The notes: generated by a model from the sequence alone, not told the origin. Positions 2,981 through 21,329 are shown, counted from the first letter of the stretch. The stretch is 22,342 bases of DNA from a virus (IMGVR_UViG_3300045999_010305:1-22342), one strand, 5' to 3'. A program made the numbers and translations.

Positions 2981-2997
2981 TCTATTTAGCTTTCAAC
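2981..2997 (-). promoter_or_regulatory. junction motif copy 1 (GTTGAAAGC-N3-RTAGR)
   Basis: Read leftwards this is GTTGAAAGCTAAATAGA, an exact match to the consensus found before many genes here. It begins 8 nt after the stop of the 273-aa gene and 58 nt before the ATG of the 737-aa fibre gene, the longest spacing in the set. Between motif and start lies a weak inverted repeat (AAGGG/CCCTT arms at 2951-2955 and 2965-2969). Probable promoter or mRNA signal; the function is inferred only from recurrence, position and orientation. Confidence 0.6.
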
Positions 2998-3004
2998 GAG
3001 CCCT

Positions 3005-3826
3005 TTAGAATAGAGAAACTTGAGCGGTTCGGATTGTGACGGTTCCAGTCACCCCTACCGAACGTCGAAACTGTAACGACACCATGTCAGTGCCAGCGAC
3101 ATTGATAATAACAGCTTGGAAATCGCCTAGCGGATTATCTGTGCTTCCGACCGCACCGTATTCGGTGTAGAATGTATCGGTACCGTTATGAGATAAGAGC
3201 AGTTCGGTTACAGAAACGGACCCGGTGCCGGTTAAAATTTCTACTATATATTTGCCACTTCGATAGAGGGTCTTATCATACGATTCTAGTTCTACCCATC
3301 CGGATTCGCCCGAAGCGACAGTGGTTTTGAATACGCTGGTACGCAGGCCGGTACCTGTTTCGCTAACGAACCCGTACGAGCCAAATGTTATATTATCGGC
3401 CAACCGAACTTCCAACGATCCTACAGTATTGTCAACAAAAAACGAACCGGTATCTAACGCGTAGGACTGAGCGGTTCCGCTGGGGCTTCCGACAATGATC
3501 TCATTCGCTCCTAGAGCGGAATCCAGGATACCAGTGCTTTGCCACGAATCCGTCGATTCGTTATAAACTCTAAGGACCGGTGTTAATCCGGATTTGTCGA
3601 TCCACAATTCACCATCAGACAGATCAGTGTAGTTAACAGGGGTAGGAGGCGATACGCCAACATGTGCCGGACCGACCTTACGGATTTTCCCTAGAGTATC
3701 CCGCAGATACACACCAACACTATTGGTATGGTAATTAACCGCTAACTCTCCATCCAATATTGAGGTTGATAGTGGGCGTTTTTCAAATACCGCGCTTCGA
3801 ATATGGCGGTAGGAATCTCGTGACAT
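3005..3826 (-). CDS. tail fibre-type structural protein, cyanophage-like N-terminus (273 aa)
   Basis: The N-terminus 'RHIRSAVFEKRPLSTSIL' followed by 'DGELAVNYHTNSVGVYLRD' and 'GKIRKVGPAHVG' resembles a module I recall at the start of several cyanomyovirus appendage proteins. In those, the phrase introduces a short beta domain thought to contact other fibre or baseplate parts. 'DGELWIDKSGLTPVLRVYNE' near residue 90 is a second such segment. The C-terminal half is beta-rich and ends 'VTGTVTIRTAQVSLF'. No catalytic motif, signal peptide or membrane segment is visible. It starts 2 bp after the stop of the 239-aa gene, so the two are probably co-transcribed. The exact structural role (fibre, whisker or collar) is not resolved. 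Confidence 0.8.
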   Translation of the reverse strand: MSRDSYRHIRSAVFEKRPLSTSILDGELAVNYHTNSVGVYLRDTLGKIRKVGPAHVGVSPPTPVNYTDLSDGELWIDKSGLTPVLRVYNESTDSWQSTGILDSALGANEIIVGSPSGTAQSYALDTGSFFVDNTVGSLEVRLADNITFGSYGFVSETGTGLRTSVFKTTVASGESGWVELESYDKTLYRSGKYIVEILTGTGSVSVTELLLSHNGTDTFYTEYGAVGSTDNPLGDFQAVIINVAGTDMVSLQFRRSVGVTGTVTIRTAQVSLF

Positions 3827-3828
3827 GA

Positions 3829-4548
3829 TTAGTATGTTCCCCCGTCTAGAGAGTAAAAGGGTATGCCGTCAGGTCGTACGGCATCTTCAAAGAAATCAGC
3901 AACGTAGGATTGAAGTGTACTGTATGGGACTGCATCGGTACCAAGAACGGGTGCGGCAACACCGGTAATCCGTTTACTGTTGAGATCGAGTGCGTAGTCA
4001 CCATTGGATACCAGGCGACCAAGTGATAATTTGTTTTCAAAAACCACACCGCCCGAGTTGCTTACGTACCCGATCCGGTCATCGGTATTATCGCGCCATT
4101 CGGTAACAATAGGATTGACGCTTGAGCCACGAACCGTCAACGCGATGGCGTTATTGGAACCCGGGTTAATGGTATTTTGGGCTGTGGTGGTTGGTGTTCT
4201 GCGTAGCAGAGTGTTTGGATCAAGGTCGATACCAGCGATAAGAGCGTCGACCTGGGTTTTAGTATATGTACCGGCTAAAGTCGCATATGTCGCAGCGACA
4301 CTAGCGTTAATGGTCGCTTGCAAACCTGCTAACGCCGTATTTAGCTGAGTGGTTGATACTTTTGAGCTTTGTAGGCCGGCTATTAATCCGGATAACGTCG
4401 CTAGCTCAGAGTCAATATACGCCCGCGTGTACGTCGTACTCGTATTCGCTTTAGAGTTTAATAGACTATTTACTTCCGCTTTAGTATACTGGTCTAACAC
4501 TCCACCAAGATTTGGCGTACAGGACTTCCCGTATTGATTAGTAGCCAT
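3829..4548 (-). CDS. coiled-coil tail fibre-like protein (239 aa)
   Basis: The first half is an alpha-helical repeat region typical of trimeric fibre shafts: 'YTKAEVNSLLNSKANTSTTY' (about residues 22-41), 'YIDSELATLSGLIAGLQ' and 'YTKTQVDALIAGIDLDP'. The second half is beta-rich and includes 'NAIALTVRGSSVNPIVTEWR', 'DRIGYVSNSGGVVFENKLSL' and a C-terminal part with 'KRITGVAAPVLGTDAVPYST', the usual phrase of phage fibre proteins in which a domain with conserved 'ITGVA.P....DA' follows the shaft. Its start overlaps the 3' end of the Cys-rich 295-aa gene by 11 bp, and a junction motif inside that gene lies 34 nt before the ATG. It probably heads the unit 4548-3005. The role as a fibre or connector is inferred from composition; the partner is unknown. 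Confidence 0.8.
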   Translation of the reverse strand: MATNQYGKSCTPNLGGVLDQYTKAEVNSLLNSKANTSTTYTRAYIDSELATLSGLIAGLQSSKVSTTQLNTALAGLQATINASVAATYATLAGTYTKTQVDALIAGIDLDPNTLLRRTPTTTAQNTINPGSNNAIALTVRGSSVNPIVTEWRDNTDDRIGYVSNSGGVVFENKLSLGRLVSNGDYALDLNSKRITGVAAPVLGTDAVPYSTLQSYVADFFEDAVRPDGIPFYSLDGGTY

Positions 4549-5425
4549 TCGTTCTCGGTCCTACCCCTATATCGCTTTCAACTGGCACGCAGACTAGATC
4601 GGTACCGTCGCTACCTAGATCGACAATGACACGTCCCGGTCCGCAGGATGTGGTTTTACCGCATGTGCTTAGGTTACCGTTACGGATACAATACAGGCGG
4701 GAGAAGTAGGCGGAAGGGGGTGGGCCTGGTACGATTAGGCTGGGGGTCGCTGGCATATCAGACGTGGCCACATACACACAAGTGTAGTCATCGCACCGAG
4801 TATTCCATAAAACTGTGTCTCCAGAACGATAGAAATACGTTTTCGCTATTTTCGCATCATCCCACTCATCCGAATTTGGTGTAGTTAAATCTACGTCCCA
4901 TTCCGATTCAAAATCCGACCAGGCAGTTAAAAACGGCTTTGGGTTGTAAAAATCGTATTTAGATAATAACGTTGTTACGTCAGGCAATCCAACGGGCTCG
5001 GAGACCGTTACCCGACATATTTCCGACCATTGAGCCGGATCGAACGCTCCAGCGGGTACTGGTACATTAACAATCGCTTCATAGACCACAACGGTTAAAC
5101 CGTCGGATTCTAAGACAATTACTTTGTCTCCTATTCTGTACGCGTATTCATCCGTGTACGCGGCTACTTGCCAGCGCTCATCACTAATCGCGTCCTCGTG
5201 GTCCCATGGAACAGGGATATTACCCCACTCTGTATACACACCGCGTTCAGGATCGTACAACGGATACAGGTTTACTAATTCCCTTGCATCACGACCGCAA
5301 GTATTAAGTCCGGCTGCAGTGCAGCCGGTATTAGCTATACTATTTGTTGTTATCCCACGCGCGTTCACCGCCGCGAGCTGATCGGCGGTTAAATTACAGC
5401 CCGTAACGAACGAACGCGCGGCCAT
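4538..5425 (-). CDS. cysteine-rich virion protein with two carbohydrate-binding-like modules (295 aa)
   Basis: I recognise no full-length family. Two segments resemble the CBM5/12 (chitin-binding type 3) pattern of Trp/Tyr, 'GD.V' and a following 'Y.A': one around residues 85-139 ('YAYRIGDKVIV', then 'VYEAIVN', then 'AQWSEICRV'), the other around 187-246 ('YFYRSGDTVLW', then 'CVYVATSD'). Such modules often occur in baseplate-associated or receptor-binding phage proteins. Ten cysteines (10, 35, 43, 137, 211, 216, 246, 255, 261, 279) are far more than in the neighbouring virion genes. No signal peptide is evident. The ATG at 5425 directly precedes 'AARSFVTGCNLTADQLAAVN' and lies 11 bp after the tube-like gene, so it is likely co-transcribed with it. 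Its last codons contain a junction motif for the next gene and overlap that gene by 11 bp. A surface or baseplate role is inferred. Confidence 0.72.
   Translation of the reverse strand: MAARSFVTGCNLTADQLAAVNARGITTNSIANTGCTAAGLNTCGRDARELVNLYPLYDPERGVYTEWGNIPVPWDHEDAISDERWQVAAYTDEYAYRIGDKVIVLESDGLTVVVYEAIVNVPVPAGAFDPAQWSEICRVTVSEPVGLPDVTTLLSKYDFYNPKPFLTAWSDFESEWDVDLTTPNSDEWDDAKIAKTYFYRSGDTVLWNTRCDDYTCVYVATSDMPATPSLIVPGPPPSAYFSRLYCIRNGNLSTCGKTTSCGPGRVIVDLGSDGTDLVCVPVESDIGVGPRTNGY
4566..4582 (-). promoter_or_regulatory. junction motif copy 2
   Basis: Read leftwards this is GTTGAAAGCGATATAGG. It lies entirely inside the 3' end of the Cys-rich gene, where it encodes Val-Glu-Ser-Asp-Ile, and begins 34 nt before the ATG of the coiled-coil fibre gene. 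Its position inside coding DNA shows that the element is kept for nucleotide-level reasons or as a coding tail, and is not mere spacer. Confidence 0.6.
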
Positions 5426-5436
5426 GGGCCTTTAAC

Positions 5437-5868
5437 TTATAGATAAGTGTAGTAGTCGCCTACGATCGTCGCTTCTAGCGTACTGGGGTTACCGCTAGTG
5501 CGGTCAACCTGGCCGAAGTTGATGCTAGACCATTGGCAGTTGAATACAATTAGTTCGCGACCGAGAGGTTGAGGATTTTCACCACAAGTAACCGGAGTCA
5601 CAGTAGTCGTAAAGTACTGACAATTGTCCGTACCGTTCCAAATATCCACCAATGCTGCGTGGATCTCGGGATCGAAGGGGGTGGACAGAGTCATCTCAGC
5701 TAGGGTTTTGGGGCCCCGGAGATTATAGATACGCTGCTGGGTGGCATGCGCGTACTGTGAGGTAGCGCTGGTATCACGAACGCCGGTGAAAGAGGTGAAG
5801 TAAAGATCAGGAGTTAGGCTCGTAAATACGAGAAACTGAGACTGAGTAATTGGACGGATGTTTAGCAT
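5437..5868 (-). CDS. probable tail tube protein (143 aa)
   Basis: This small all-beta protein has features of the tail tube/Hcp fold family. The N-terminus 'QSQFLVFTSLTPDLYFTSFT' is followed by 'GVRD'. A central segment reads 'RIYNLRGPKTLAEMTLSTPF', then 'DPEIHAALVDIWNG', matching the usual order of a beta-hairpin, a loop and a helix before the last strands. It ends with beta strands ('LIVFNCQWSSINFGQVD', 'EATIVGDYYTYL'). Its length suits T4 gp19-like tubes (about 160 aa). It would polymerise inside the sheath encoded at 18489. It sits between the portal and appendage genes, with a junction motif 37 nt before the ATG. Three cysteines are unusual for a tube protein. No search could be run; another small tail or neck protein remains possible. 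Confidence 0.6.
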   Translation of the reverse strand: MLNIRPITQSQFLVFTSLTPDLYFTSFTGVRDTSATSQYAHATQQRIYNLRGPKTLAEMTLSTPFDPEIHAALVDIWNGTDNCQYFTTTVTPVTCGENPQPLGRELIVFNCQWSSINFGQVDRTSGNPSTLEATIVGDYYTYL

Positions 5869-5888
5869 GACGGTGGGTGTCTCGTCTA

Positions 5889-5905
5889 TCTACCTAGCTT
5901 TCAAC
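5889..5905 (-). promoter_or_regulatory. junction motif copy 3
   Basis: Read leftwards this is GTTGAAAGCTAGGTAGA. It lies in the 52-bp gap between the portal stop (5921) and the probable tube gene start (5868), 37 nt from the first base to the ATG. An abundant protein such as the tail tube would suit having its own transcription or processing signal. Confidence 0.6.
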
Positions 5906-5920
5906 ACAAGAAAAAATCCG

Positions 5921-7870
5921 TCACATGTAGTACGGTGCGAAGTCAGCCCAGTAGCCAAGGGATTCCGGATCGATATTGACAAGTTCACGATGAACAAAAC
6001 TTCGATTAAGACGATAGGCGGATGAGTAGAGTTTTACGAGATTTTCCACACTATCCGTATCAAGGTCGTCGCCACGTAGAACAATATTCTCAAAACGTGC
6101 CAGATCCATGCGAAGGGTATCATGCTGATACGGGATTTGTCTGGGTACGGATCGAATCTCATCCAGCAGACGTTTAGTTACATAGATAATATCTCCGGGC
6201 GTGGTATACTCGTCGACATTGATCTTAGAGTTTTCGGAATCGGTAGACGATACGCCTGCGGATAACCTGTCCCAGCCAACTTCATCCATTCCACCCTGAT
6301 TAAACCGCTCAGCAATTTTTTTGGCGACTTTGTCTCGAGTCGTCTCATCCTTCAAGTCGCCACTCTCGTCAAATTCGCTGAAGTCGAGGTTTTCGGCGGA
6401 CAGGGGTGGAGGCGAAGACGACAACAGCTTTCCAATCACGCTTTCGCCAATTACCGGTCCGTTGGATTCACCGGCATTAGCGGTTTGGGGGTTACGACTA
6501 TTTCTATGTTCGCCCATACCAGCGTCCGCACCCATCCCGCCCATCATTTCTTCCATCGAGATTTTCTCAAGCGACGGAATCCTGAGTTTATCACGCACCC
6601 AGTCAAGATCGGTAACCTGGTAACCCACCGCTTGAAGCTGAGTAAGTATCTGAACCGTTTTGATCGGATCTTCGCCACGCTGCTCGATATCGCTGAAATC
6701 GCGCGAGATTCTAGGTACCGACGAGCCCGGATAATTCAACTCCACGATCCACCGAATCAGTGTCGCGTTAATGGTTTCGTCGAGCTGATCAGAAAAACTC
6801 TTAGATTTTCGAATCCGTACCGAGTCGGCAATCTGGTCACGAGCGTAACTGCCAACCCCGGTACCTTCTGCTCCTACCGTCGCTTCACCGTTAATTAGAA
6901 ATGAGATCTGCTGGTCAATGTAGCTGATAAGGTTTTGGTATACGTCCGCCCTGGAGTCTGATGTCAAATAGTCAATCGACATCTCGTCTGGTACGACAAT
7001 CGCCGTCTCCTGACCTAGTCGTTGCAACGCGGTAAACAATGACTTTACCTCCTCTTCAGGGGTACCGAGGCTAAACTTACCTACCGCAGTCGGAGTAGTA
7101 TGCTTGTCAGCGTATTGTAGCCAGAATGATAATAGCGTGCGGCGGAATTCTACCAGACTGTAAAGTTGTCGGCCTAGGCCAGTGCCATATGGGTCCGCAA
7201 GGTTATTGTACGCCCAGTGGCGATGAATAACCATTGAGCGGAGAGGGATAGGCATCCCTTCGACCGGAGATTGAATTGTAATGATTCGGGGGCTGATTGA
7301 GCCATCTTCATTTAGGATGAACTGAAACCGCCTCGGATCGCGAATCTTGATCTCGCTGGGGACAACGTAGCTTCCCTGTCTGATCCAGCAAATCTCACCC
7401 ACACTCATGCCGAGAATCAACGATTCCGCCATGCCCTTAACGAATGCGTTAAACCCTGTATTCGAGCTGACTAGCATGTCCCGACCCCGACTCTGCCGAG
7501 TGTTCGTACCGAGGTGATAAAGAGTCTGACGGACAAATTCCGCCACTTCTTCGTCTTTATCCGAATCTGATGTGGGATAAACGTGCCATTCGCGCTGAAT
7601 AATCTCTCCGACTAACTTTTCCCACGCCGAAATTACCGCGCTGTCGTTGAACAGTCGGGTATATTGTTCGATGGCACGGGGGCCGCCACCACCCTCCTCG
7701 ATAAGAATGTCGTCACGGCGAGGAAGGATAGCACCGGTAAGGACGGTTGGGAGCCCGCCCCATGTGTACGGATCACCTTTGTATCCACCCAGTGCGCCCT
7801 GGTTAACGCCGAGCGAATATAGTCGGTCGTTATAACCGGTTTTAACAACCCTTTTCGTCTCGGCGGACAT
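5921..7870 (-). CDS. portal protein, DUF935 / Mu gp29-like (649 aa)
   Basis: This is the dodecameric portal through which DNA is packaged and to which neck and tail attach. Family signatures are strong: 'SAWEKLVGEIIQREWHVYP' (about residues 81-99), 'IRDPRRFQFILNEDGSI' (176-192), 'VIHRHWAYNNLADPYGTG' (214-231) with 'LGRQLY' after it, and 'GEATVGAEGTGVGSYARDQ' (328-346) followed by a helical clip region. At about 650 aa it is longer than many DUF935 portals (about 450-550); the extra length is an acidic, low-complexity C-terminal part after residue 430 with 'GMGADAGMGEHRNSRN' and 'SSSPPPLSAENLDFSEFDES'. I chose ATG 7870 because GAGAAG lies 7 nt upstream; an in-frame TTG immediately before it (7873) is less well spaced. 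The junction motif starts 32 nt upstream inside the preceding gene. The Mu-type portal contrasts with the cyanophage-like fibres. Confidence 0.92.
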   Translation of the reverse strand: MSAETKRVVKTGYNDRLYSLGVNQGALGGYKGDPYTWGGLPTVLTGAILPRRDDILIEEGGGGPRAIEQYTRLFNDSAVISAWEKLVGEIIQREWHVYPTSDSDKDEEVAEFVRQTLYHLGTNTRQSRGRDMLVSSNTGFNAFVKGMAESLILGMSVGEICWIRQGSYVVPSEIKIRDPRRFQFILNEDGSISPRIITIQSPVEGMPIPLRSMVIHRHWAYNNLADPYGTGLGRQLYSLVEFRRTLLSFWLQYADKHTTPTAVGKFSLGTPEEEVKSLFTALQRLGQETAIVVPDEMSIDYLTSDSRADVYQNLISYIDQQISFLINGEATVGAEGTGVGSYARDQIADSVRIRKSKSFSDQLDETINATLIRWIVELNYPGSSVPRISRDFSDIEQRGEDPIKTVQILTQLQAVGYQVTDLDWVRDKLRIPSLEKISMEEMMGGMGADAGMGEHRNSRNPQTANAGESNGPVIGESVIGKLLSSSPPPLSAENLDFSEFDESGDLKDETTRDKVAKKIAERFNQGGMDEVGWDRLSAGVSSTDSENSKINVDEYTTPGDIIYVTKRLLDEIRSVPRQIPYQHDTLRMDLARFENIVLRGDDLDTDSVENLVKLYSSAYRLNRSFVHRELVNIDPESLGYWADFAPYYM

Positions 7871-7878
7871 CAAACTAA

Positions 7879-8127
7879 CTACTTCTCTATTTCGCTTTCA
7901 ACGGTTTTTTCGTCTGCCGAGCGGTAGACCACATCGAGATTGAGGATAGATTGATAAAGATCTTCACGGCTCATCTCGCCTCTTTCGTACATGTCAATTG
8001 TTTCCTCCGCTCCATCGACGTATACGCCATACGTGGTGTCGGTCAGGACGTTAATCCCACGCTGTCTTTCCAAGCTTTTTGCGCTATCCGCATCCTGGTT
8101 TCCATTTTTCTTAGTTCGTCTTGCCAT
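7879..8127 (-). CDS. hypothetical small acidic protein (82 aa)
   Basis: Family not recognised. The N-terminus is basic ('MARRTKKNGNQ') and the remainder acidic and helical, for example 'EETIDMYERGEMSREDLYQS'. No motif, signal or membrane segment is visible. The start overlaps the preceding 290-aa gene by 85 bp in another frame, an unusually long same-strand overlap. The C-terminus 'TVESEIEK' is encoded by the junction motif that precedes the portal gene, and it nearly repeats the C-terminus 'YVESEIEM' of the leucine-rich-repeat gene. Its position directly before the portal suggests a head or packaging accessory role, but nothing in the sequence proves it. Confidence 0.65.
   Translation of the reverse strand: MARRTKKNGNQDADSAKSLERQRGINVLTDTTYGVYVDGAEETIDMYERGEMSREDLYQSILNLDVVYRSADEKTVESEIEK
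7886..7902 (-). promoter_or_regulatory. junction motif copy 4
   Basis: Read leftwards this is GTTGAAAGCGAAATAGA. It lies inside the last codons of the 82-aa gene (encoding Val-Glu-Ser-Glu-Ile) and begins 32 nt before the portal ATG. The bases just after it form GAGAAG, which can serve as the portal ribosome-binding site. Confidence 0.6.
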
Positions 8128-8915
8128 AATTTTAGGTAGTTGGGTAGATGTTGGAGATACCGCTGATCCCAGCCTTGAATATGAGAAAGTTCGGAGGGCG
8201 GATAGCGGTTGAATGTCGATCGGAGAAAATGTATAGCGGTTTTGACAAACTCGCGACTATTGGCCTCGTAGATTTTATCAAACTGCTCCGAGTCGATAAA
8301 CGGGTATGCTTTGTGGAATTCGGCGAACAGCGGAGAGCTTGAAAAACTGTTGGACAATTTTTCCTGCGCCTCTGTCTGTATTGCATCGAGTTGCTCGGTA
8401 ACAATACGGGCATCAATGGTACCGAGGGCGGCGGATACTAGCTCAAACGCCTTATGTACTTTTATTTTACCATACTTTTCGACCGCTTTGTCCAAGTCGT
8501 CGCGAAGATTATACGCGACTTTCGTGTCTTTGGCCTGTGTCCATCGACCCATTCGTTGCCCACACCAGGATATTGTGATAGGAAGAGCGAGAAGAGGTAG
8601 GGGCAGGTTTTCCGGATTCTCTAGTTCTTTCGCCCTTATCAACGCGCCTGAGTTTACTTTCGTCTTAGCGATGAGGCCAATGTGGCTATCGTCACACTGG
8701 CCGCAAGACGTTTCAGCGTTAAACAAACGGTCCGCAGCATCACTGGTCGTCGCTTTCCCTTGATGCCCGCTCACCCCCATCATCGCCATTTCCTTCTCGT
8801 GCCGGTGCTTCTCCTTTACCGTCCACTTTTCGTGCTCTAGGACCTCGCGAACTACGTCCGGGTCGAGGTTTAGCCGGCTCAGGGCTAGCAGGTTGTCTAG
8901 CAGGTTCTGGTCCAT
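8043..8915 (-). CDS. hypothetical helical protein upstream of portal (290 aa)
   Basis: Family not recognised. It is mostly helical, with a charged N-terminal segment 'EVLEHEKWTVKEKHRHEKEM', a possible metal or disulfide site 'SCGQCDDSH' (near residue 70) and, about 45 residues later, 'SWCGQRMGRW'. The C-terminal third is a Tyr/Trp-rich helical region ('FVKTAIHFLRSTFNRYPPSE', 'LPNYLKLWQDELRKMETRMR'). I chose ATG 8915 over an in-frame TTG at 8954 because the residues between look unlike a gene start. The first 176 nt overlap the preceding gene and the last 85 nt overlap the next one, both in other frames. The operon position before the portal hints at a head-assembly or packaging function, but this is inference only. 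Confidence 0.7.
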   Translation of the reverse strand: MDQNLLDNLLALSRLNLDPDVVREVLEHEKWTVKEKHRHEKEMAMMGVSGHQGKATTSDAADRLFNAETSCGQCDDSHIGLIAKTKVNSGALIRAKELENPENLPLPLLALPITISWCGQRMGRWTQAKDTKVAYNLRDDLDKAVEKYGKIKVHKAFELVSAALGTIDARIVTEQLDAIQTEAQEKLSNSFSSSPLFAEFHKAYPFIDSEQFDKIYEANSREFVKTAIHFLRSTFNRYPPSELSHIQGWDQRYLQHLPNYLKLWQDELRKMETRMRIAQKAWKDSVGLTS

Positions 8916-9333: not shown

Positions 9334-9370
9334 GACAGCAAATTGGTACAACCCTTTCTCATACCCTTTC

Positions 9371-9385
9371 ACCGGAATTTCCGGT
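9371..9385. promoter_or_regulatory. perfect inverted repeat between divergent genes (operator-like)
   Basis: ACCGGAA and TTCCGGT are perfect 7-bp arms around one central T. The element lies in the 88-bp divergent gap, overlaps the first two bases of the junction motif for the rightward gene and sits 38 nt before the leftward ATG at 9333. A dimeric regulator site or a small RNA hairpin are both possible; neither is shown. Confidence 0.4.
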
Positions 9386-9400
9386 TGAAAGCAAGGTAGG
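9384..9400 (+). promoter_or_regulatory. junction motif copy 5
   Basis: GTTGAAAGCAAGGTAGG, first base 38 nt before the GTG start of the 1070-aa gene. The bases AGGTAGGAAG (9394-9403) could double as a distant ribosome-binding site. It is the first motif pointing rightwards in this window and marks the switch of transcription direction. Confidence 0.6.
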
Positions 9401-9421
9401 AAGATTTTTGTATTGTAGCAC

Positions 9422-12400: not shown

Positions 12401-12634
12401 ACAGTACCGCAGACTCACCCGCAACACTCGTTCTCAGCTAATGGGTTAAGTGAGATTTCACGTTCGTCGGTATTAAAGGATACGCCAATGTCGTGTGCAA
12501 GCCTTAAGGACCCCTATGAATACGGGGCATGTATGTCAATGCTGAAATGCAAAAAGTTCCGACCACCGTATGAGGGTAAGTACTCATTTCCATTCTGCCC
12601 TAGCACCTTACACGGTGGGAGGCTAAGGAAATGA
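9422..12634 (+). CDS. very large protein of unknown family, probable virion or tail-assembly component (1070 aa)
   Basis: I do not recognise a family. Residues 1 to about 800 are predominantly helical with many Leu/Ile and few Cys, for example 'ESEKNAFYRVAVDLLLAITD' near the N-terminus and 'LLGYELDLQDFNDRFNDLAN' in the middle. A beta-rich stretch follows ('YIRIAVSNLLANGILVENGV', about 870-890), then a low-complexity linker. The last about 140 residues hold seven of the protein's nine cysteines, in segments such as 'SSCIRFGNANCVDQ' and 'GACMSMLKCKK'. No membrane segment or catalytic motif is evident. GTG 9422 is the first possible start, since an in-frame TAG lies 6 nt upstream. It overlaps the leucine-rich-repeat gene by 4 bp (ATGA), so the two are translationally coupled. 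Placement among fibre genes makes a baseplate or tail role likely but unproven; a tape measure is disfavoured by the lack of hydrophobic segments and by the Cys-rich tail. Confidence 0.8.
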   Translation: MSAITELVRERVGGIVTRGLDEYGKFGVESEKNAFYRVAVDLLLAITDRIDNGEIVTISPLRDFMINGVFAVGFDSSRVIEIFESITRSLYAEIESEAIVDPDTVRIYQKYEKLLREVVGDYRALLQKSITEYLGEIDEYGIAKTEVLLPVTRSRLLKSNRVVRDSLIVSRRRIRKKFKDIFDSKVLQYANTISKASRDINAITSDSKTPNPIDPVDRDLLVATFAGEGKKIYEDIERLFNFSVEMAGYQGSLVGAVEYQALYYEYLMAMSYGKVLPQGVLTGDFGNFEEIYNTRATESNIPGLKFLETLYTTRSANQTVGISVPVAKKYTRVGVTDRYSAPKQSDNALDNVSLALESVYILCLKIGDTIQSLLNNKPKGIGDTATHLSVLSRVFPQSSDLRLRNTGITGAISSLLSAHRTLYLLLGYELDLQDFNDRFNDLANLLSGLVRTIRVIGFKPGGHVPSLELTYHEPNKEKIKKRLISLGFSRAEAEGIINVQSFSELLSRFAPISDSQDVISFFRAYDLTKLIYEFGGQEAIDQFTDFLYGRDSDKSVLRLLDFLERSRSLASKVKSSEYSKLIGYLVTITYAINPEQLAALDSILKRNNLDLFESITYLVEQNIPSVIRDRANISLLSGMVAQMVTLDNSGYDAQKPLWNNLIENSAGNVGRGVNGLYERAEGITPTELYSALTKPSGTSPLGQILDGVRGGRLTSLLRYCNIFGLLYSLSPHRNSGQLVNQSADNYVVILELLDTMEMLTERLELARLIFDDNATGDNTAKTSYVEPIVQVQNKELMAMVDLVSTLGTEDTIVPDSYAIVESPGVGNSRVPNGIRVTNSLTPEEAVIISVRGSSIGAFTAAANAVESGAYIRIAVSNLLANGILVENGVSVNIEESQSSSFESPVKDYSVTYEPRTNASQSTPSSFDPLSSCIRFGNANCVDQGYPETSELCSTGYNKSLYPETGYDSLPGFVDGVLIDRPLGSKISENIAYQTVPQTHPQHSFSANGLSEISRSSVLKDTPMSCASLKDPYEYGACMSMLKCKKFRPPYEGKYSFPFCPSTLHGGRLRK

Positions 12635-13401
12635 CTCTTGAGTCGTACTGTAAATACACAGAGAACGCTCCGGTATTGGAGTTCGGCAACGGCCCGGAGT
12701 ATTTTAACGGAACGAGGGACGGAGGGATCTATCGATCAAGAATTGAGAAGCAACTAACCGACTCGTTACGGATTGTTGTTGAATACAAGAATGGCGTTCC
12801 GCATCCGATCGATACGTTTAAACTCACCAACCAGTCCGTGACTACGTGGGACGATTACTGGGTGGACACCAAAGATGGGCTTATAGTTGATCCAAAAATT
12901 CATCACATAAATTTGCAGAGAAATAGTCTTGTATATGTAAATATAAACACTCCGAGACTAGAGTTACGGACTTTAAATTTAGAAGGAAATAGGGAGCTAG
13001 TGCATTTGTATATACATGAGGCACCACTCCTTGAACGATTAAATATTACTGGCTGTACTAGTCTTAAGTACATATCACTCGGGATTAACCGCTCGGTTAG
13101 GGAGTTAATAGCCAAGGATTGTAGCATGAGTGGAGATACGCTTGAACAGTTGTTGCGGGACTTCACCCCTACCGTGTGTGCTAGTGCAAATACTGGCGGG
13201 ATAGGAATGTTTCGTAAACAACATAGCACGGTGTTGGATCTTCGTGGTAACATCATCGACTGGTCGAATCCGCGTATCGCTAGTAAGATACGGTTGTTAC
13301 TTACCAACAATTGGGTAGTGAAGTGGGATAATAATCCGCCAAGCAACATAGTGTCCCCTTCCCTCTACGGTTTTTACGTTGAAAGCGAGATAGAGATGTA
13401 A
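12631..13401 (+). CDS. leucine-rich-repeat protein (256 aa)
   Basis: Residues about 90-215 contain irregular leucine-rich repeats of the 'L..L.L..N..L' type: 'IHHINLQRNSLVYVNI', 'LRTLNLEGNRELVHLYI', 'LERLNITGCTSLKYISL' and, after an insertion with Cys 164 and 183, 'STVLDLRGNIIDWSNP'. Leucine-rich repeats form curved ligand-binding surfaces, so host-surface or protein binding is plausible; no enzymatic motif is visible. The N-terminal about 85 residues ('NGPEYFNGTRDGGIYRSRIE') have no family I recognise. ATG 12631 overlaps the stop of the 1070-aa gene as ATGA, implying coupled expression and perhaps a shared complex. The C-terminus 'YVESEIEM' is encoded by the junction motif for the next gene. 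A close alternative would be a bacterial-style surface protein acquired as a fibre tip. Confidence 0.78.
   Translation: MTLESYCKYTENAPVLEFGNGPEYFNGTRDGGIYRSRIEKQLTDSLRIVVEYKNGVPHPIDTFKLTNQSVTTWDDYWVDTKDGLIVDPKIHHINLQRNSLVYVNINTPRLELRTLNLEGNRELVHLYIHEAPLLERLNITGCTSLKYISLGINRSVRELIAKDCSMSGDTLEQLLRDFTPTVCASANTGGIGMFRKQHSTVLDLRGNIIDWSNPRIASKIRLLLTNNWVVKWDNNPPSNIVSPSLYGFYVESEIEM
13378..13394 (+). promoter_or_regulatory. junction motif copy 6
   Basis: GTTGAAAGCGAGATAGA. It encodes Val-Glu-Ser-Glu-Ile at the end of the leucine-rich-repeat protein and begins 34 nt before the GTG start of the 429-aa fibre gene. Same frame and nearly the same peptide as copy 4, on the other strand and in an unrelated gene. 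Confidence 0.6.
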
Positions 13402-13411
13402 TGTAAACTCT

Positions 13412-15037: not shown

Positions 15038-15041
15038 GGGT

Positions 15042-15342: not shown

Positions 15343-15362
15343 CGGTGGAGTTGTAGTCTTAT

Positions 15363-15379
15363 CCTACTACGCTTTCAAC
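15363..15379 (-). promoter_or_regulatory. junction motif copy 7
   Basis: Read leftwards this is GTTGAAAGCGTAGTAGG, 37 nt from the first base to ATG 15342. It lies in the gap after the 53-aa gene, which ends at 15442. No other gene or clear terminator is visible in 15380-15441. Confidence 0.6.
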
Positions 15380-15441
15380 CAAATAACGGCTAAGCAACAA
15401 AAATTCGACAGAAAATACTAATCGAGACTTGAGTTAAACGA

Positions 15442-15603
15442 CTAAAGAGTCTCTTCTGCTCCGGATTTTCTATAAATTGGATAAATACCTTCAGAATCTT
15501 CTATGGCTACGCACCCCTCAGGTGGTTGCCAATTCGATTCACCATCCCAAACGATCCGGTTAATGCAGACTTTCTCCGCATTAAGTATAGCATAAACTTT
15601 CAT
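15442..15603 (-). CDS. small conserved-looking protein after the adhesin gene (53 aa)
   Basis: Its ATG overlaps the stop of the polyglycine adhesin gene as ATGA, a strong sign of translational coupling. The sequence 'MKVYAILNAEKVCINRIVWD' continues with 'GESNWQPPEGCVAIED'. A short 'N.I.WDG...WQPPEG' protein is one I recall from cyanophage appendage regions, often downstream of a fibre or adhesin gene. There it may act as a small chaperone or assembly factor (inference). The frame ends at TAG 15442-15444. Nothing suggests a membrane segment. Confidence 0.7.
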   Translation of the reverse strand: MKVYAILNAEKVCINRIVWDGESNWQPPEGCVAIEDSEGIYPIYRKSGAEETL

Positions 15604-16472
15604 GGCCAACTCCAGACACGGACGACTCCGGCAGCTCCGTCGCCTCCAGCGCCAGAGTTACCTGTTGTTCCGCCGCCGCCACCGCCGCCGCCACCGCCAG
15701 GGAAGGCTCCATTGCCTCCAGTGCCACCATTAGTTGACGAGTTAGATCCGCCTCCACCGCCGCCGCCATCTCCAATTGTCGTCCCATTACCCCCATTGCT
15801 AGCGCTACTTCCCGATGCTCCGCCACCACCTGTACTACTTGCACCAATAGCTGCATTCTTTAATTCACTAAAACCTTCTCCTCCAACTGCGCCACTGTTT
15901 GGTGTATTTCCAGTTGTAACACCACCGCCTCCTGCACCACCCCCTGGTCCTAAAGCTGCGCGAGAACCTGATGTGCCTACACCACCTGTACCAGAAGAAT
16001 TACTACCTGCTCCTGCATATAAACCATTAATACTATTTCCCCAGTAAGAAACAGACGCTCCTGTTGCTCCAGCGGATGTTCCTCCTGTACCTCCACTTGT
16101 AGCTGGACTAACAACTAAAGAACCAAAAGACGATGAGCCTCCATCTCCACCTGAAGTACCGTCACTATTAACTGTTCGTGCAGCCCCGCCAATGCCGCCT
16201 GATCCAACTGTAACAGTTACCGTATCACCAACTAAAGTAGCTGGAATCCACCGAGCAACAAATTTTCCTCCTGCGCCACCTGCGCCACCATTTCTTGCAA
16301 GAGTTGTTGAAGTATTTCGGCGACCACTACCACCGCCACCGCCCCCGCTGACACACTCTACGTAGATAAATTTTGTTCCGTTAGGTTTTGTCCATGTGCC
16401 GCTACTAAGGAATTCCTGGTAGTCAGCAGAACCTTGAACACCAGATAGACTTGGAACAGTATAGAATGACAT
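15600..16472 (-). CDS. polyglycine-rich tail adhesin / fibre tip (290 aa)
   Basis: The N-terminal 'QEFLSSGTWTKPNGTKFIYV' matches the short opening common to glycine-rich phage fibre domains ('F..SGTWT.P.G'), followed by 'ECVSGGGGGGSG'. Glycine then dominates, with runs of six, eight and ten Gly separated by Ser/Thr/Asn-rich loops such as 'SGSSASNGGNGTTIG'. The protein closes with 'GDGAAGVVRVWSWP', the usual final strand of this domain type. Packed polyglycine II helices are known for S16-type gp38 adhesins, where variable loops bind the host receptor; the same design is inferred here. It lies 5 bp after the 134-aa gene and overlaps the 53-aa gene by 4 bp, so the three are probably one unit. 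Many codons end in A/T, unlike the head genes, consistent with exchange of tip modules. Confidence 0.82.
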   Translation of the reverse strand: MSFYTVPSLSGVQGSADYQEFLSSGTWTKPNGTKFIYVECVSGGGGGGSGRRNTSTTLARNGGAGGAGGKFVARWIPATLVGDTVTVTVGSGGIGGAARTVNSDGTSGGDGGSSSFGSLVVSPATSGGTGGTSAGATGASVSYWGNSINGLYAGAGSNSSGTGGVGTSGSRAALGPGGGAGGGGVTTGNTPNSGAVGGEGFSELKNAAIGASSTGGGGASGSSASNGGNGTTIGDGGGGGGGSNSSTNGGTGGNGAFPGGGGGGGGGGTTGNSGAGGDGAAGVVRVWSWP

Positions 16473-16477
16473 AGCAA

Positions 16478-16882
16478 TTACACGTATTCGGTTACTTGTG
16501 CGGTTCCGTTAGCAGAAACCCATATACCATATATAGCATTTCCCACAATCAATTGTTGGTCAAGTAGCAAAAAACTACCAGGCTGCATAACAATAAATGC
16601 GTTAGAAGTTGTGGCCGGAGAATTAAAACTAAGTCGTAAGATTTGAGTGCTATCATTAGCAATACTAATTCCGCGTCTATTGGCATTGGCGCTAATAATT
16701 GTAACGCTACTGCTGCTGCTAGCCACGCTGGTTGTAGTGGGCGTGCGAGATACAACTGTCCCCTGAGCCGGATCAACAATACTCCCCGAACTATCTGCTA
16801 ACTGAATGACCTGAAATGTCTTACCACCGGCAATATTGATCGCCTCGTCGTTTACTTGCCTAGGGTTATCATAATAAGCCAT
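16478..16882 (-). CDS. small beta-rich structural protein (134 aa)
   Basis: A Ser/Thr-rich linker ('RTPTTTSVASSSSSVTII') leads into a beta domain with 'NANRRGISIANDSTQILRL' and 'PGSFLLLDQQLIVGNAIYGI', ending 'WVSANGTAQVTEYV'. The sequence 'N..R.G..I.NDS...L.L' followed by a Gly-aromatic turn and 'I.GIW.SANG.A.VTE' is a small domain I recall from phage virion proteins, sometimes called head fibre or tail decoration. Function inferred only. It starts 36 nt after the first base of a junction motif and is the first gene of the unit leading to the polyglycine adhesin. A role attaching the adhesin is possible, but the sequence does not establish it. Confidence 0.7.
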   Translation of the reverse strand: MAYYDNPRQVNDEAINIAGGKTFQVIQLADSSGSIVDPAQGTVVSRTPTTTSVASSSSSVTIISANANRRGISIANDSTQILRLSFNSPATTSNAFIVMQPGSFLLLDQQLIVGNAIYGIWVSANGTAQVTEYV

Positions 16883-16901
16883 TACGGATGATGCTCTACT
16901 A

Positions 16902-16918
16902 TCTATCTAGCTTTCAAC
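16902..16918 (-). promoter_or_regulatory. junction motif copy 8
   Basis: Read leftwards this is GTTGAAAGCTAGATAGA, continuing as a TAGA-type repeat. It overlaps the end of the 116-aa gene, where it encodes Val-Glu-Ser followed by the stop TAG, and begins 36 nt before the ATG of the 134-aa gene. This copy has the clearest consensus. Confidence 0.6.
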
Positions 16919-17257
16919 TGTTCCTTCACAACCTGGAATGTTCCGACCGTCTGTATCCTTCTCAAGCAAGTTGCTGCTGACTGGGCTCTGAACTACATAT
17001 TCCGTCGTTTCTGTCCATTGCTGCCAACCCCATACATCTTCATTACATGTGCCATGGGGAATTTGTGCCTGAGAATCCGCCCCTCCCGCACGTACATTTC
17101 TTTCTGGCCCCGGATTCACCCTGTTGCTTCGCAACAAATACTCCGATTGCCGCATCATTTGTCGAGTCAACGCGCTAGCCTGAGTCTCCCGACTGCGGTA
17201 GTCAGAATTTTCCCGTTCATCCTCCCAGTGCCGGTACGGATTTGATTGTACGGCCAT
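16907..17257 (-). CDS. hypothetical protein (116 aa)
   Basis: Family not recognised. The N-terminal half is charged and helical ('YRSRETQASALTRQMMRQSE'), the second half contains 'NEDVWGWQQWTETTEYVVQ'. Two cysteines are present; no motif or membrane segment is visible. It is preceded by a junction motif, first base 35 nt before the ATG, and it ends with Val-Glu-Ser-stop provided by the next motif. It lies divergently from the chaperone gene at 17350, with a 92-bp gap between the two starts. Confidence 0.65.
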   Translation of the reverse strand: MAVQSNPYRHWEDERENSDYRSRETQASALTRQMMRQSEYLLRSNRVNPGPERNVRAGGADSQAQIPHGTCNEDVWGWQQWTETTEYVVQSPVSSNLLEKDTDGRNIPGCEGTVES

Positions 17258-17275
17258 ACGGATTACGTTTGCTCT

Positions 17276-17292
17276 TCTATCCCGCTTTCAAC
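17276..17292 (-). promoter_or_regulatory. junction motif copy 9
   Basis: Read leftwards this is GTTGAAAGCGGGATAGA, 35 nt from the first base to the ATG of the 116-aa gene. It lies in the divergent gap 17258-17349 next to a degenerate rightward copy beginning at 17301. Confidence 0.6.
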
Positions 17293-17300
17293 TTTTGACA

Positions 17301-17328
17301 GTTGAGCGAAAAATCGGTGAATAGGACT
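17301..17328 (+). promoter_or_regulatory. degenerate junction-like element before the chaperone gene
   Basis: GTTGAGCG (17301-17308) and, 20 nt after its first base, ATAGGACT (17321-17328) match the two halves of the element before the sheath gene (GTTGAAAGC at 18446, ATAGGACT at 18461). Both are followed within about 10 nt by CTCAC. The first base lies 49 nt before ATG 17350. A weaker relative of the junction motif; uncertain. Confidence 0.35.
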
Positions 17329-17349
17329 ATATGCTCACCTCAGACTATT

Positions 17350-17724
17350 ATGGCATTATCGTCTAAATCGCTACGGGAACTTGAAGTTACCGCTGCCGAC
17401 GCTTCATCGGATTTTGACTTTGGCGATCCGGAAGTCATCGCGGTTGAAGTAGCACCTGGCAAGTTCCTGTCACTTCAAGAACCCAGCGCGGAAGATTTGA
17501 TTGAGATCACAAAAATTTCTGCAGACAAATCGTTGGACGAAGTTCAAGCGACCCTAAAAACCATCTGCATTCTGCATAGTCCGGACCCAGGCGGACGCAA
17601 ACTCACTCTTAAAGATGCGAAACGCCTCCGCGCGAAACAGATCAAGTTACTCGGTAACGCGATTAACGAATTGCTGGGCGGGGGTGACGATGATGAAGAC
17701 ATGAAAAGCGAAGAGGACGGTTGA
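17350..17724 (+). CDS. probable tail assembly chaperone, short form (124 aa)
   Basis: Tail assembly chaperones coat the tape measure protein during tube growth and are typically made in a short and a frameshift-extended form. This frame has the expected pattern: an acidic N-terminal region, a beta segment 'GDPEVIAVEVAPGKFLSLQE', helix 'PSAEDLIEITKISADKSLDE', a Leu-rich helical core ('LTLKDAKRLRAKQIKLLGNA') and a Gly/Asp/Glu-rich acidic end. I chose ATG 17350 over TTG 17302 because the earlier residues lie in the regulatory element and have no plausible ribosome site. It is followed directly by a second long frame in +1, and then by the sheath gene, where such pairs are usually found. Assignment rests on architecture and context; no search was run. 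Confidence 0.6.
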   Translation: MALSSKSLRELEVTAADASSDFDFGDPEVIAVEVAPGKFLSLQEPSAEDLIEITKISADKSLDEVQATLKTICILHSPDPGGRKLTLKDAKRLRAKQIKLLGNAINELLGGGDDDEDMKSEEDG

Positions 17725-18178
17725 GCTAGAGACGGTACGGAACCCTAACTACACCGTATCGTGTATAGATTCACGCGAACGAGTCGTTTCGTTTAGAGAT
17801 ATTCGTGGCAGCGACCTTGAGTACCTAGAATCAAAACTAGGGGGTGATGATGCGACAATTACCAGCACGGATGCTATAGGAATTTTATCCTATCTATCTA
17901 CCAGTGCCAATTTAAACTTCAACCGGTTTACGCCTGCCACTATCCGAGCACTCTATCAGTCCATTAGCGAAAACATCCTTTGCTCGTATATGACGAAAGA
18001 AACTTGGCTCAGACAATGTTACGCTATCCAAAACGGATCGTTTCAAAACATCGATGCGATGGAGTCCGTGCCACTATCTAAATTTGTTGCTATGTGTCAC
18101 ATCCACAAAGAAGCTATGGACCAGATGAACAACTTAAATAACAATGAAAACACCCAAACCTCTGCCAGTTCGATTTAG
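17705..18178 (+). CDS. out-of-frame extension of the chaperone, likely reached by +1 frameshift
   Basis: This frame is open from 17705 to TGA/TAG at 18178 and reads like a real protein throughout: 'NPNYTVSCIDSRERVVSFRD', 'GSDLEYLESKL', 'ANLNFNRFTPATIRALYQSI', 'YMTKETWLRQCYAIQNG'. It contains no ATG, GTG or TTG before ATG 17990, so 95 codons have no ordinary start. It lies in +1 relative to the chaperone frame, whose stop is in GGT-TGA-G (17719-17725); a +1 shift there joins '...SEEDG' to 'ELETVRNPNY'. Chaperone pairs in lambda (-1) and Mu (-2) are joined by frameshifting (family knowledge). The alternative is a non-AUG start or a one-base sequencing error. It overlaps the 99-aa gene by 35 bp. 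Confidence 0.6.
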   Translation, partial: KAKRTVELETVRNPNYTVSCIDSRERVVSFRDIRGSDLEYLESKLGGDDATITSTDAIGILSYLSTSANLNFNRFTPATIRALYQSISENILCSYMTKETWLRQCYAIQNGSFQNIDAMESVPLSKFVAMCHIHKEAMDQMNNLNNNENTQTSASSI

Positions 18179-18443
18179 CGAAGAGCTAGAGACAAAGGAA
18201 CTCGTACAGTTCATGTTAATTCTGTACGAGATCTCCAAAGCACGTGACTTTATGGAATTGAGTCGGTTTGTTAAACTAGTCGCAGAAGTTATTGGGCCAG
18301 CAGATTTTAATCTGCTGCTTCGCAGCACAGTAAAGCTAATGGGATCGCATCGGTGCGGAAGAGATATGTGCTCGGACTGGTTAATGACTCAGCTATATGA
18401 ACTGTATCAGGCGTTTGGTAGTGAGCAAATTGAAACTTTGTGA
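18144..18443 (+). CDS. hypothetical helical protein (99 aa)
   Basis: Family not recognised. It is almost entirely helical, with 'ELVQFMLILYEISKARDFME', 'LVAEVIGPADFNLLLRSTVK' and 'WLMTQLYELYQAFGSEQIET'; two cysteines in 'HRCGRDMCSDW' could form a pair. No membrane signature. The start overlaps the chaperone extension by 35 bp in another frame, so the two are probably coupled. The stop lies just before the junction element of the sheath gene. Location between chaperone and sheath suggests a tail-assembly role. A tandem hairpin (18298-18326) is embedded in its coding sequence. Confidence 0.62.
   Translation: MKTPKPLPVRFSEELETKELVQFMLILYEISKARDFMELSRFVKLVAEVIGPADFNLLLRSTVKLMGSHRCGRDMCSDWLMTQLYELYQAFGSEQIETL
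18298..18326 (+). other. two overlapping, mutually exclusive hairpins inside the 99-aa gene
   Basis: CAGCAGATT at 18298-18306 pairs with AATCTGCTG at 18309-18317. GCTGC at 18314-18318 pairs with GCAGC at 18322-18326 around TTC. The arms share bases, so only one can form. No T-run follows, so it is not a typical terminator. It may be chance or a translational pause element. Confidence 0.3.
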
Positions 18444-18445
18444 CC

Positions 18446-18468
18446 GTTGAAAGCTATGTGATAGGACT
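18446..18468 (+). promoter_or_regulatory. junction motif copy 10 (relaxed) before the sheath gene
   Basis: GTTGAAAGC is exact (18446-18454), but the downstream TAG block is shifted by about 3 nt and reads ATAGGACT (18461-18468). The first base lies 43 nt before the TTG start of the sheath. AGGAG at 18476-18480 supplies a clear ribosome-binding site with 8-nt spacing. Confidence 0.55.
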
Positions 18469-18488
18469 GTCTCACAGGAGAGTTAGCT

Positions 18489-21311
18489 TTGGCAACTTCG
18501 ATCACAGTGAACGCCGCAGCACTGAATCGACCCGGCGTGTTTGTCGCCCAGTCGGTTACGGGCGGCCTGCCACAGCCCATCGCCAGCCATGCTGTAGGCT
18601 ATTTGTTCGGTACGACTCCGGCCGATGAATATTACGGCACCGGCAGCGAGGGTATTTATTCAGAATTTCTTCCATACACCCCGACTCAAGTAGCCTCAGT
18701 AGAGGACTACCTGCTAAAGGTTGGTGGTACGTTGCCCACTGGTAGTGTCGGCGCACTGACCACCTACGATGCGGTAAAAGGGTTTTTCGATAACGTTGGT
18801 GTTAACGGAATTCTCTACTTTACCCGTGTAACCCCAACCCCTGAAACGGTAATTAATCTCAGCGCTAGCAGTGCTGGAGCCGGTTATAACGCTTTCGCGA
18901 TTAAGGTTAACGGTCGGTATTTTGGTACTCCGATCAATGTTCTCGATCCGGATGGTGACGAGATTCGGGTCATTACGACTACCGGTATCGATGCGATTGA
19001 TAACGCACGCGACCTGTTTGTATATCTATCCGGGGCTAATTCTGACGGTTTCTCTGATTTCTATAAAGTCGAGCAAACTGCGACCGAAGCGACTCAAGGT
19101 AAGTTCAGAGTATTTGCGCGTGACAACACCAATCTGCCCGAAATCGATCGGTTTGTTGCCTATAGCTTCACCGATACTGGTTACGCTAGCCCGTTAAATT
19201 TAGATACCGAAGCCGTAGTTAAACTATACACCTCGGTAAAGGAGATTAACTTCCGCTGCAATAGTAGGGAGATCGCAACTGGTCAGGGCATCCTGTATAT
19301 CGAAGGTTCTTTGCTAAGCTTGTTTATCGCTGCGGCGAATACGGCGACCCCTGGTACCTACGATCCAGCAACCGAGCAATCTGATATCCTAAAAGATTAT
19401 CTCGCTAGCAAGAGTATTACTGTTGTCGACGATAAGATCGTTGCAGTAAGCAAAGACTTTAGCTCTGGCGTAGCTTCAGGCAATAAATGGACCGATGCCA
19501 GTGCAGCATACTGGCGCTACGACCTAGGAACTACTACGTTCGCGAAGCTAGTCTCTGGTTCTGACGCTATTGTTCCTACCGGCACAGTTTCCGTAAGTGG
19601 TGGCGTAGCTACCCGAACCGGCTACCTTCCTGACTCCGTCCAGGTATTTTATGTTTCTGTTGCTGGTGAAAACCGTGCGATTATTGTTAACGGTGCGACA
19701 CCAGACGAACTTGCCACTGCGCTTCGTGACGAACTTATTAGTATTCTGAACGAAAAAGAACTTGATCAGTACTACACCGTAGAAGCGGTAACAACCGGGT
19801 CTAACTACAGCGGTACAAACTACGCACCGAATAACGGCCATAAGGTTATTAACAACCTCGTATCTTCCCACGGCGCGCCGTATATTCGTCCGGACCTAGA
19901 GGATATCGCACTTACCGGCACTGTCGCAATTAGCTCTGGTACAGTAACAGGCACAAACACCCTGTTTACTCAAGAACTTGGTGCGGGAGATGTGATCGTT
20001 GTTAACGGTACTCGGTTCACGGTAACTGCGGTTACCACTAATACCGCCGCTACTGTTACCCCCAATAACGTTACGGTGACTGCTGGTGCGACTGCGAGAC
20101 TAGACAAATCTTACGCGAACGGTTTTGAATCTTTCGATTATGTTCTTAAGATTCGGATCACTGCGAAAAACGGTCTGGTAAGCCCAGTTCTTCCTGGTAC
20201 AAATCGTCAGGGTCTTACCGACAGCAATGTTGTCAAGCTAACCTCAATTCAGGAGAATGTTGGCTATGAGACCTACAAACTCACCTCCGCTGCTAAAGCC
20301 CAAGATTTCGTTTACGCGATTGAAAAGGGTATGAGCGACGAGTATTACGCCCCTGGCTTCCTAATGGCACCAGAAGCGTATGCGACGCTCAAGTATAGCG
20401 CTGATTCCGATCTCGCCTCCCGCAGCGAAGCGATTGGTGAAAGACTTAAAGTGACTCAGACTCTTGTCGCTGCGGCTGAAGGCCGGTTTGGCGTCACTGA
20501 AGGTATCAGCAACACCCAGCACGTTGCCCTAATCGATTGTGGTGGTGATGTAGACAACCTGTCTCAAGCACAAGACGAACTCGACACCATCAAACGAACT
20601 GTTGGCTCGTTCTACGGTCACGCAGCGTTCTACGCTCCGTACCTCAAAAACCTCAACGACCGCTTTGTTCCCGCTAGCCCGTTTGTGGCCGGTGCGGCCT
20701 GTAGCCGATTCATTAATGAGGGCTTCCAGCAACCTCCAGCCGGCGCAAGGTATCCGCTACGTGGTGTGGTCGATCTGAAGTTCAAGATCACCGCACAACA
20801 GCAAGAGGTAACTTACGCTCTCGGACTCAACCCGATCCGGTCTCTGCCTAACCGTGGAATCGTTGTATGGGGTGCACGTACCCTGTCCAGCAGCCCGCTA
20901 TTCCGGTTTGTCAATACTCGCGTCATTCTTAACGTCCTTATCGACGTCATGAACCGCAGCTTCGACGATATTCTCTTCGAGTCTATCGATTCTGCCGGTA
21001 CTGTGTATAGTCGAGTTAAGTCAGTTGCGAACCAGGTGCTGAACCAGTTCTTCCTGCAAGGTGCGTTGTTTGGTGGTAGACCAGAACAGGCATATCTGGT
21101 TATCTGTGGTAACAGTAACAATAGCGCTGCACTACTCGAGCAGGGTACTGTCCGTATGGATGCGTATGTGGCTACTTCACCCACCCTTGAGCGTCTTGCG
21201 ATTACCATTGTCCGCACTCCGGTCGGTCAGGTATCCCTGCTGAGCGATAGCTTTAGCAGAAATGAAGAACGGTTTACCGCTCTTCTCGATGCTACTAATC
21301 TTAACGTTTGA
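18489..21311 (+). CDS. tail sheath protein (940 aa)
   Basis: This is the contractile sheath that surrounds the tail tube and drives injection. The N-terminal region 'LNRPGVFVAQSVTGGLPQPI' and the C-terminal region with 'YALGLNPIRSLPNRGIVVWG', 'ARTLSSSPLFRFVNTRVILN' and 'FFLQGALFGGRPEQAYLVI' are the conserved ends of the sheath family. The start is TTG 18489, with AGGAG 8 nt upstream; no better in-frame start precedes the conserved 'RPGVFV'. The protein is long for the family (T4 gp18 is 659 aa). The extra length includes a beta insertion at about residues 474-545 with 'GTVTGTNTLFTQELGAGDVI' and 'TRFTVTAVTTNTAATVTPNN', probably a surface decoration domain. It follows the chaperone genes, and its tube partner is encoded on the opposite strand at 5437-5868. 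Confidence 0.93.
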   Translation: MATSITVNAAALNRPGVFVAQSVTGGLPQPIASHAVGYLFGTTPADEYYGTGSEGIYSEFLPYTPTQVASVEDYLLKVGGTLPTGSVGALTTYDAVKGFFDNVGVNGILYFTRVTPTPETVINLSASSAGAGYNAFAIKVNGRYFGTPINVLDPDGDEIRVITTTGIDAIDNARDLFVYLSGANSDGFSDFYKVEQTATEATQGKFRVFARDNTNLPEIDRFVAYSFTDTGYASPLNLDTEAVVKLYTSVKEINFRCNSREIATGQGILYIEGSLLSLFIAAANTATPGTYDPATEQSDILKDYLASKSITVVDDKIVAVSKDFSSGVASGNKWTDASAAYWRYDLGTTTFAKLVSGSDAIVPTGTVSVSGGVATRTGYLPDSVQVFYVSVAGENRAIIVNGATPDELATALRDELISILNEKELDQYYTVEAVTTGSNYSGTNYAPNNGHKVINNLVSSHGAPYIRPDLEDIALTGTVAISSGTVTGTNTLFTQELGAGDVIVVNGTRFTVTAVTTNTAATVTPNNVTVTAGATARLDKSYANGFESFDYVLKIRITAKNGLVSPVLPGTNRQGLTDSNVVKLTSIQENVGYETYKLTSAAKAQDFVYAIEKGMSDEYYAPGFLMAPEAYATLKYSADSDLASRSEAIGERLKVTQTLVAAAEGRFGVTEGISNTQHVALIDCGGDVDNLSQAQDELDTIKRTVGSFYGHAAFYAPYLKNLNDRFVPASPFVAGAACSRFINEGFQQPPAGARYPLRGVVDLKFKITAQQQEVTYALGLNPIRSLPNRGIVVWGARTLSSSPLFRFVNTRVILNVLIDVMNRSFDDILFESIDSAGTVYSRVKSVANQVLNQFFLQGALFGGRPEQAYLVICGNSNNSAALLEQGTVRMDAYVATSPTLERLAITIVRTPVGQVSLLSDSFSRNEERFTALLDATNLNV

Positions 21312-21312
21312 C

Positions 21313-21329
21313 GTTGAAAGATAGATATG
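21313..21329 (+). promoter_or_regulatory. short junction-motif copy 11 before the protease gene
   Basis: GTTGAAAGATAGATATG keeps GTTGAAAG and TAGA but lacks the spacer, so its first base is only 14 nt before the ATG (21327). GAAAG may act as a weak ribosome-binding site. It begins directly after the sheath stop. Whether it works like the other copies is uncertain. Confidence 0.45.

Follow-up and report, generated by a model that had tools for sequence, protein, structure and literature searches.

A conserved element upstream of virion genes in S-TIM5-like cyanophages is a candidate late promoter, probably read by a phage sigma factor

The DNA analyzed here, called the window throughout, is a virus record of 22,342 bases whose recognizable genes are virion genes. 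Its tail sheath protein is ~53% identical to that of S-TIM5 over 99% of the length and its portal protein ~56% identical to the S-TIM5 portal; these two identities mark the window as part of the genome of an S-TIM5-like cyanomyovirus (Aurunvirus relatives). A preliminary description of the window had reported nine exact copies of the 17-base pattern GTTGAAAGC-N3-RTAGR, distributed on both strands, and we found all nine at the same coordinates and on the same strands (Table 1), with no match in 100 dinucleotide shuffles. As it had also stated, the copies lie at gene junctions, each directed into the following gene, and the measured distance from first base to start codon is 32 to 38 nt for eight of them and 58 nt for the remaining one. 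The window junctions that carry the motif mostly carry it in relatives too (the two weaker cases being 1/2 and 2/8), and those devoid of it are also devoid of it at the orthologous junctions of relatives.

Table 1. Copies of the element in the window and two genes proposed to be under its control
Feature	Position	Strand	Distance to start codon	Orthologous junctions with motif	Remarks
GTTGAAAGCTAAATAGA	2981..2997	(-)	58 nt before ATG 2939	1/2 (that one being S-TIM5)	Tail-fibre/virion-like gene 726-2939
GTTGAAAGCGATATAGG	4566..4582	(-)	34 nt before ATG 4548	8/8	Within end of upstream ORF 4538-5425
GTTGAAAGCTAGGTAGA	5889..5905	(-)	37 nt before ATG 5868	8/10	
GTTGAAAGCGAAATAGA	7886..7902	(-)	32 nt before ATG 7870	9/10	Portal gene; GTTTAAAG there in S-TIM5
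GTTGAAAGCAAGGTAGG	9384..9400	(+)	38 nt before GTG 9422	8/9	
GTTGAAAGCGAGATAGA	13378..13394	(+)	34 nt before GTG 13412	12/13	Overlaps end of ORF 12631-13401
GTTGAAAGCGTAGTAGG	15363..15379	(-)	37 nt before ATG 15342	10/13	
GTTGAAAGCTAGATAGA	16902..16918	(-)	36 nt before ATG 16882	2/8	
GTTGAAAGCGGGATAGA	17276..17292	(-)	35 nt before ATG 17257	10/14	Sister motif there in S-TIM5
Variant GTTGAAAGC-N7-ATAGG	18446..18465	(+)	43 nt before TTG 18489	13/14 (sheath orthologues)	Tail-sheath gene
Portal gene	5921..7870	(-)			PHROG 113 portal, E=1e-72; proposed to be governed by element 7886-7902
Tail sheath gene	18489..21311	(+)			PHROG 17610 tail sheath, E=4e-257; proposed to be governed by the variant element

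Two further copies had been listed, a relaxed one at 18446 and a short one at 21313. The former is, by its conservation before sheath orthologues, a real variant of the putative sheath promoter, and its displaced second block is found in relatives too. The latter was dropped: ~14 nt separate it from the following ATG, where the usual range is 27 to 45 nt, and GTTGAAAGC was found at the matching junction in 0 of 15 orthologues of S-TIM5 virion_43187, so that it is probably nonfunctional. Separately, the sheath junctions of the window (18446-18489), of contigs G001 to G013 and of G031 share a conserved downstream tract, AGG-N-CTGTC ... GGAGA, which together with the displaced second block perhaps forms a separate leader element.

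The motif extends well beyond the window. Of 13 related IMG/VR contigs, 11 contain the strict 17-mer and none its reversed control, and the GTTGAAAGC 9-mer alone occurs 317 times in related contigs versus 5 times each for its reversed and complemented forms, these 317 copies not being independent because many of the contigs are related; we therefore also worked with nonredundant sets of 108 sites and of 135 sites (main group). Placement relative to gene starts, on which the preliminary description had staked its claim, is far from random in the related contigs, since 233 of the 317 copies stand 27 to 45 nt before an open frame, versus ~7 to 8% of random positions. Moreover, the motif-finder check that it had called for succeeded: k-mer enrichment and an EM motif finder each recovered the motif unprompted. 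A scan of IMG/VR with a 19-base pattern returned many single matches, some at least by chance; it was set aside as evidence because unrelated large contigs contain the 9-mer at background numbers only.

The window motif is absent from the cultured phage S-TIM5, which carries instead 36 copies of a sister motif, GTTTAAAG; 22 of these precede one of the annotated genes tested by no more than 90 nt. Among S-TIM5 genes with GWTTAAAG upstream, 13 of 17 have GTTGAAAGC in most relatives, compared to 7 of 52 other genes (p = 3e-6). GTTTAAAG thus replaces GTTGAAAGC at orthologous S-TIM5 junctions, and an element kept in place while its sequence changes fits a trans-acting reader that co-evolves with it.

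The element favors virion genes and the heads of transcription units. In S-TIM5, it precedes 18 of 44 virion genes versus 3 of 36 metabolic and replication genes (p = 0.001), while TATAAT-like boxes show the opposite bias (12/36 metabolic and replication genes versus 4/44 virion genes, p = 0.01); in G001 alone, the virion bias has the same direction and is not significant (p = 0.13). Among relatives, the element stands at 17 of 310 tight codirectional junctions versus 54 of 178 divergent ones (p = 2e-13), a comparison partly confounded by the intergenic space that the element itself takes up, and in S-TIM5 at none of 49 tight codirectional junctions. From the function of these genes, their expression would be late.

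A conservation profile was drawn from the 108 nonredundant sites, which had been picked by the 9-mer. Beyond that 9-mer, it shows R13 T14 A15 G16 R17 A18 and, weakly, G19, with the TA step as the most conserved part of this second block, and a weak preference for T/C immediately before the motif and for purine or A immediately after it. Positions 20 to 27 form an A+T-rich stretch that is tied to the motif and not to the start codon. In S-TIM5 and the G031 group, the second block is weak. From -44 to +75, no other conserved box was seen in these sites, which bears out the earlier remark that no TATAAT follows TTGAAA after 16 to 18 nt; a canonical -10 box downstream of TTGAAA was thereby discarded as a candidate. 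The element does not form a canonical sigma-70 -35/-10 pair 16 to 18 bp apart, having no second box and nothing conserved upstream. Where two genes diverge, a pair of copies can stand back to back, with 0 to 1 bp between their 5' ends, and therefore no separate upstream box is needed.

The abutting copies also bear on the idea, raised in the preliminary description, of a processing or translation signal, which would act at the RNA level, from the 5' leader of late transcripts, as a processing site or as an enhancer of translation. The near-constant distance to the start codon would suit such an element, as would the scarcity of Shine-Dalgarno-like sequences (before 19 of 128 genes with the motif). 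Abutting divergent copies, however, leave no room for a promoter between them, no conserved sequence lies upstream, and the element is rare at tight codirectional junctions; we consider this explanation very improbable. A Shine-Dalgarno role was likewise rejected, no excess of such sequences having been found. As a side observation, sequences resembling TAGCAC (TATAGCAC, TTGTAGCAC) turn up repeatedly close to gene junctions, in many cases next to the element (G001, G003, G010, and the window at ~9411-9421); they could be a host-type -10 or the site of another regulator.

S-TIM5 and G001 both encode, near TerL, a member of the sigma-70 family, named SigF in the S-TIM5 annotation; the two proteins are 40% identical. 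The Pfam profile Sigma70_r2 matches the G001 protein at 35.6 bits (cutoff, 24) and the S-TIM5 protein at 23.7, just below the cutoff, and no Pfam profile matched region 4, a profile search being weak evidence here. An AlphaFold2 model of the sigma (mean pLDDT 71, pTM 0.33) has sigma-factor folds as its best PDB matches. Our first idea, a sigma without region 4, was withdrawn once the C-terminal domain modeled alone (pLDDT 87) matched region-4 domains best, weakly (Foldseek E >0.5, Z <=6.6). Relatives of this sigma were found at 29 IMG/VR loci (G001 and 28 more), and the gene co-occurs with the element: 17 of the 20 sigma-bearing contigs tested have the strict 17-mer, G033 and G034 have GTTGAAAGC with a looser second block, and G030, at 11 kb, is too short to judge.

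Two neighbors of the sigma gene deserve mention on their own account. Directly after it lies a conserved protein gene of ~190 to 240 amino acids (L112 8662-9348 (+); G001 81762-82484 (-); S-TIM5 109734-110309 (-)) with no confident Pfam family (best, DUF6390, E=0.007), whose product is possibly a partner of the sigma. Between TerL and the sigma gene, a small thioredoxin-like gene (G001 83184-83510 (-), L056 3184-3510; Thioredoxin_2 E=6e-5, below cutoff) raises the idea of a redox control of the sigma.

A dedicated sigma gene in the lineage speaks against activation of the kind known from MotA-type middle promoters, in which another phage DNA-binding protein would bring in the SigA-containing polymerase of the host, and so does the lack of a TATAAT-like box at a fixed distance. 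The invariant nine-base block of the element is typical of a DNA-binding protein; on balance, we hold such an activator to be improbable. A promoter for a T7-like single-subunit RNA polymerase was suggested by the form of the element, one ~20-bp block ending in TAG and purines and resembling the T7/SP6 type (-15 to +2, purine-rich start). Against it, a search for PF00940 in complete S-TIM5 and in five large relatives found nothing, the T7 and P-SSP7 controls being positive, and the families of bacterial-type phage RNA polymerases were absent as well, with controls working. This makes a phage polymerase the least probable of the explanations weighed here.

Altogether, conservation in relatives and at orthologous junctions, the presence of a sigma gene alongside the motif, divergent pairs that abut, and the preference for virion genes support what the preliminary description had put forward, a phage-specific promoter for the scattered virion genes. 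We propose, with a probability of about 0.7 for the model as a whole, that the element acts as a late promoter of the S-TIM5-like lineage and that its likeliest reader is the phage's own sigma-70-family SigF. The promoter would be one directional, self-contained block of ~20 bp, GTTGAAAGC-N3-RTAGRAG, located 27 to 45 bp before the start codon at the heads of virion units. Host core RNA polymerase with phage SigF would bind GTTGAAAGC as a single -10-like box, and the mRNA would start in the TAG of RTAGR, presumably at A15 or G16, positions preferred because leaders would then measure ~13 to 30 nt.

Several observations do not sit easily with this model. RTAGR is more conserved than is usual for a start site, and the C-terminal domain of the sigma resembles region 4, the -35 binder, so that its domains would lead one to expect something other than a single -10-like box. 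Furthermore, the window, a 22-kb fragment, lacks the sigma gene, which lies elsewhere in the genomes of relatives, and the statistical limits given above for G001 and for the junction comparison apply here too. The same promoter and sigma could also be laid out differently, with RTAGR(AG) as the -10 box (T14 A15 being -12/-11), GTTGAAAGC as an upstream box at ~-25 to -17 and a possible start near position 26. The strongly conserved TA step, the A+T-rich positions 20 to 27 that track the motif, and the region-4-like domain would all agree with this layout. Nevertheless, its leaders would be very short (2 to 20 nt, mostly ~10) and poor for translation, the distance between its boxes would fall short of that in known -35/-10 pairs by about one helical turn, and its supposed -10 box is the block that is weak in S-TIM5 and the G031 group; we regard it as unlikely, though worth keeping in view beside the model with a start in TAG.

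A homologous sigma is found in the cyanosiphovirus P-SS2 (NC_013021.1), whose gp003, a group-3 sigma homologue (26% identity), is encoded next to terL, as SigF is near terL. The P-SS2 authors suggested that this group-3 sigma reads sequences of a particular regulon, the main text giving no cognate promoter (PMC2784084). The P-SS2 box differs from those above: GGAANGCT, a lead found after looking for it, stands 24 to 48 nt before 13 genes versus 1.4 at random positions (maximum 7 in 300 trials). Many of these are virion genes, among them portal, tape-measure and baseplate genes (sites, e.g., at 17615, 63224 and 73094; L166/L167), and GGAANGCT is a possible cognate promoter of the P-SS2 sigma. 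A second recurrent P-SS2 sequence, GGTAGANTG, precedes several genes by ~30 to 33 nt (e.g., 2058, 29828, 31767, 32714), and TTGACA stands upstream in some cases. Phage Cr-LKS4, with a related sigma, showed TTGACA-type motifs and no GTTGAAAG.

The pairings of these sigmas with GTTGAAAGC, GTTTAAAG and GGAANGCT are proposed here. A tentative extension, to which we lend limited credence, would be that the promoter is compact, its two blocks separated by about one helical turn less than in known sigma-70 promoters, that it is read by a sigma in which domains 2 and 3 are accompanied by a domain 4 that has diverged strongly, and that sigma and promoter have co-evolved into these three lineage versions. 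Matched sets of sigma and promoter from several lineages make such co-evolution directly testable, as they do orthogonal promoters for cyanobacteria. Moreover, the element provides a readable signal for the late regulon of cyanophages that have been little studied, and allows late genes to be recognized in metagenomic fragments.

No description of the motif was found in the open papers searched, a search outside which the original S-TIM5 genome paper fell. Ma-LMM01, likewise a cyanomyovirus, has early, middle and late classes and was reported with sigma-70-like motifs only and without phage-specific motifs (PMC5780444). T7/SP6 promoters share the single ~20-bp block and the purine-rich start, whereas no single-subunit polymerase gene was found here. 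The T4 late promoter box is TATAAATA; the box of the present element is a different one, GTTGAAAGC or GTTTAAAG. In other respects, T4 late promoters (gp55 sigma, gp33 and sliding clamp gp45) are the closely similar case, with a single box near -10, no -35 conservation, an A+T-rich downstream stretch, late genes on both strands and a phage sigma (PMC2988020). Unlike them, the element has a conserved TAG block ~5 bp after the box, and the sigma of the S-TIM5 lineage, unlike gp55, combines region 2 with region-3 and region-4-like domains. A lineage-specific motif before virion genes and a phage sigma gene in the motif-bearing genomes were both found, and the element probably belongs with the phage-sigma late promoters, SigF being the factor that would direct late transcription from it.
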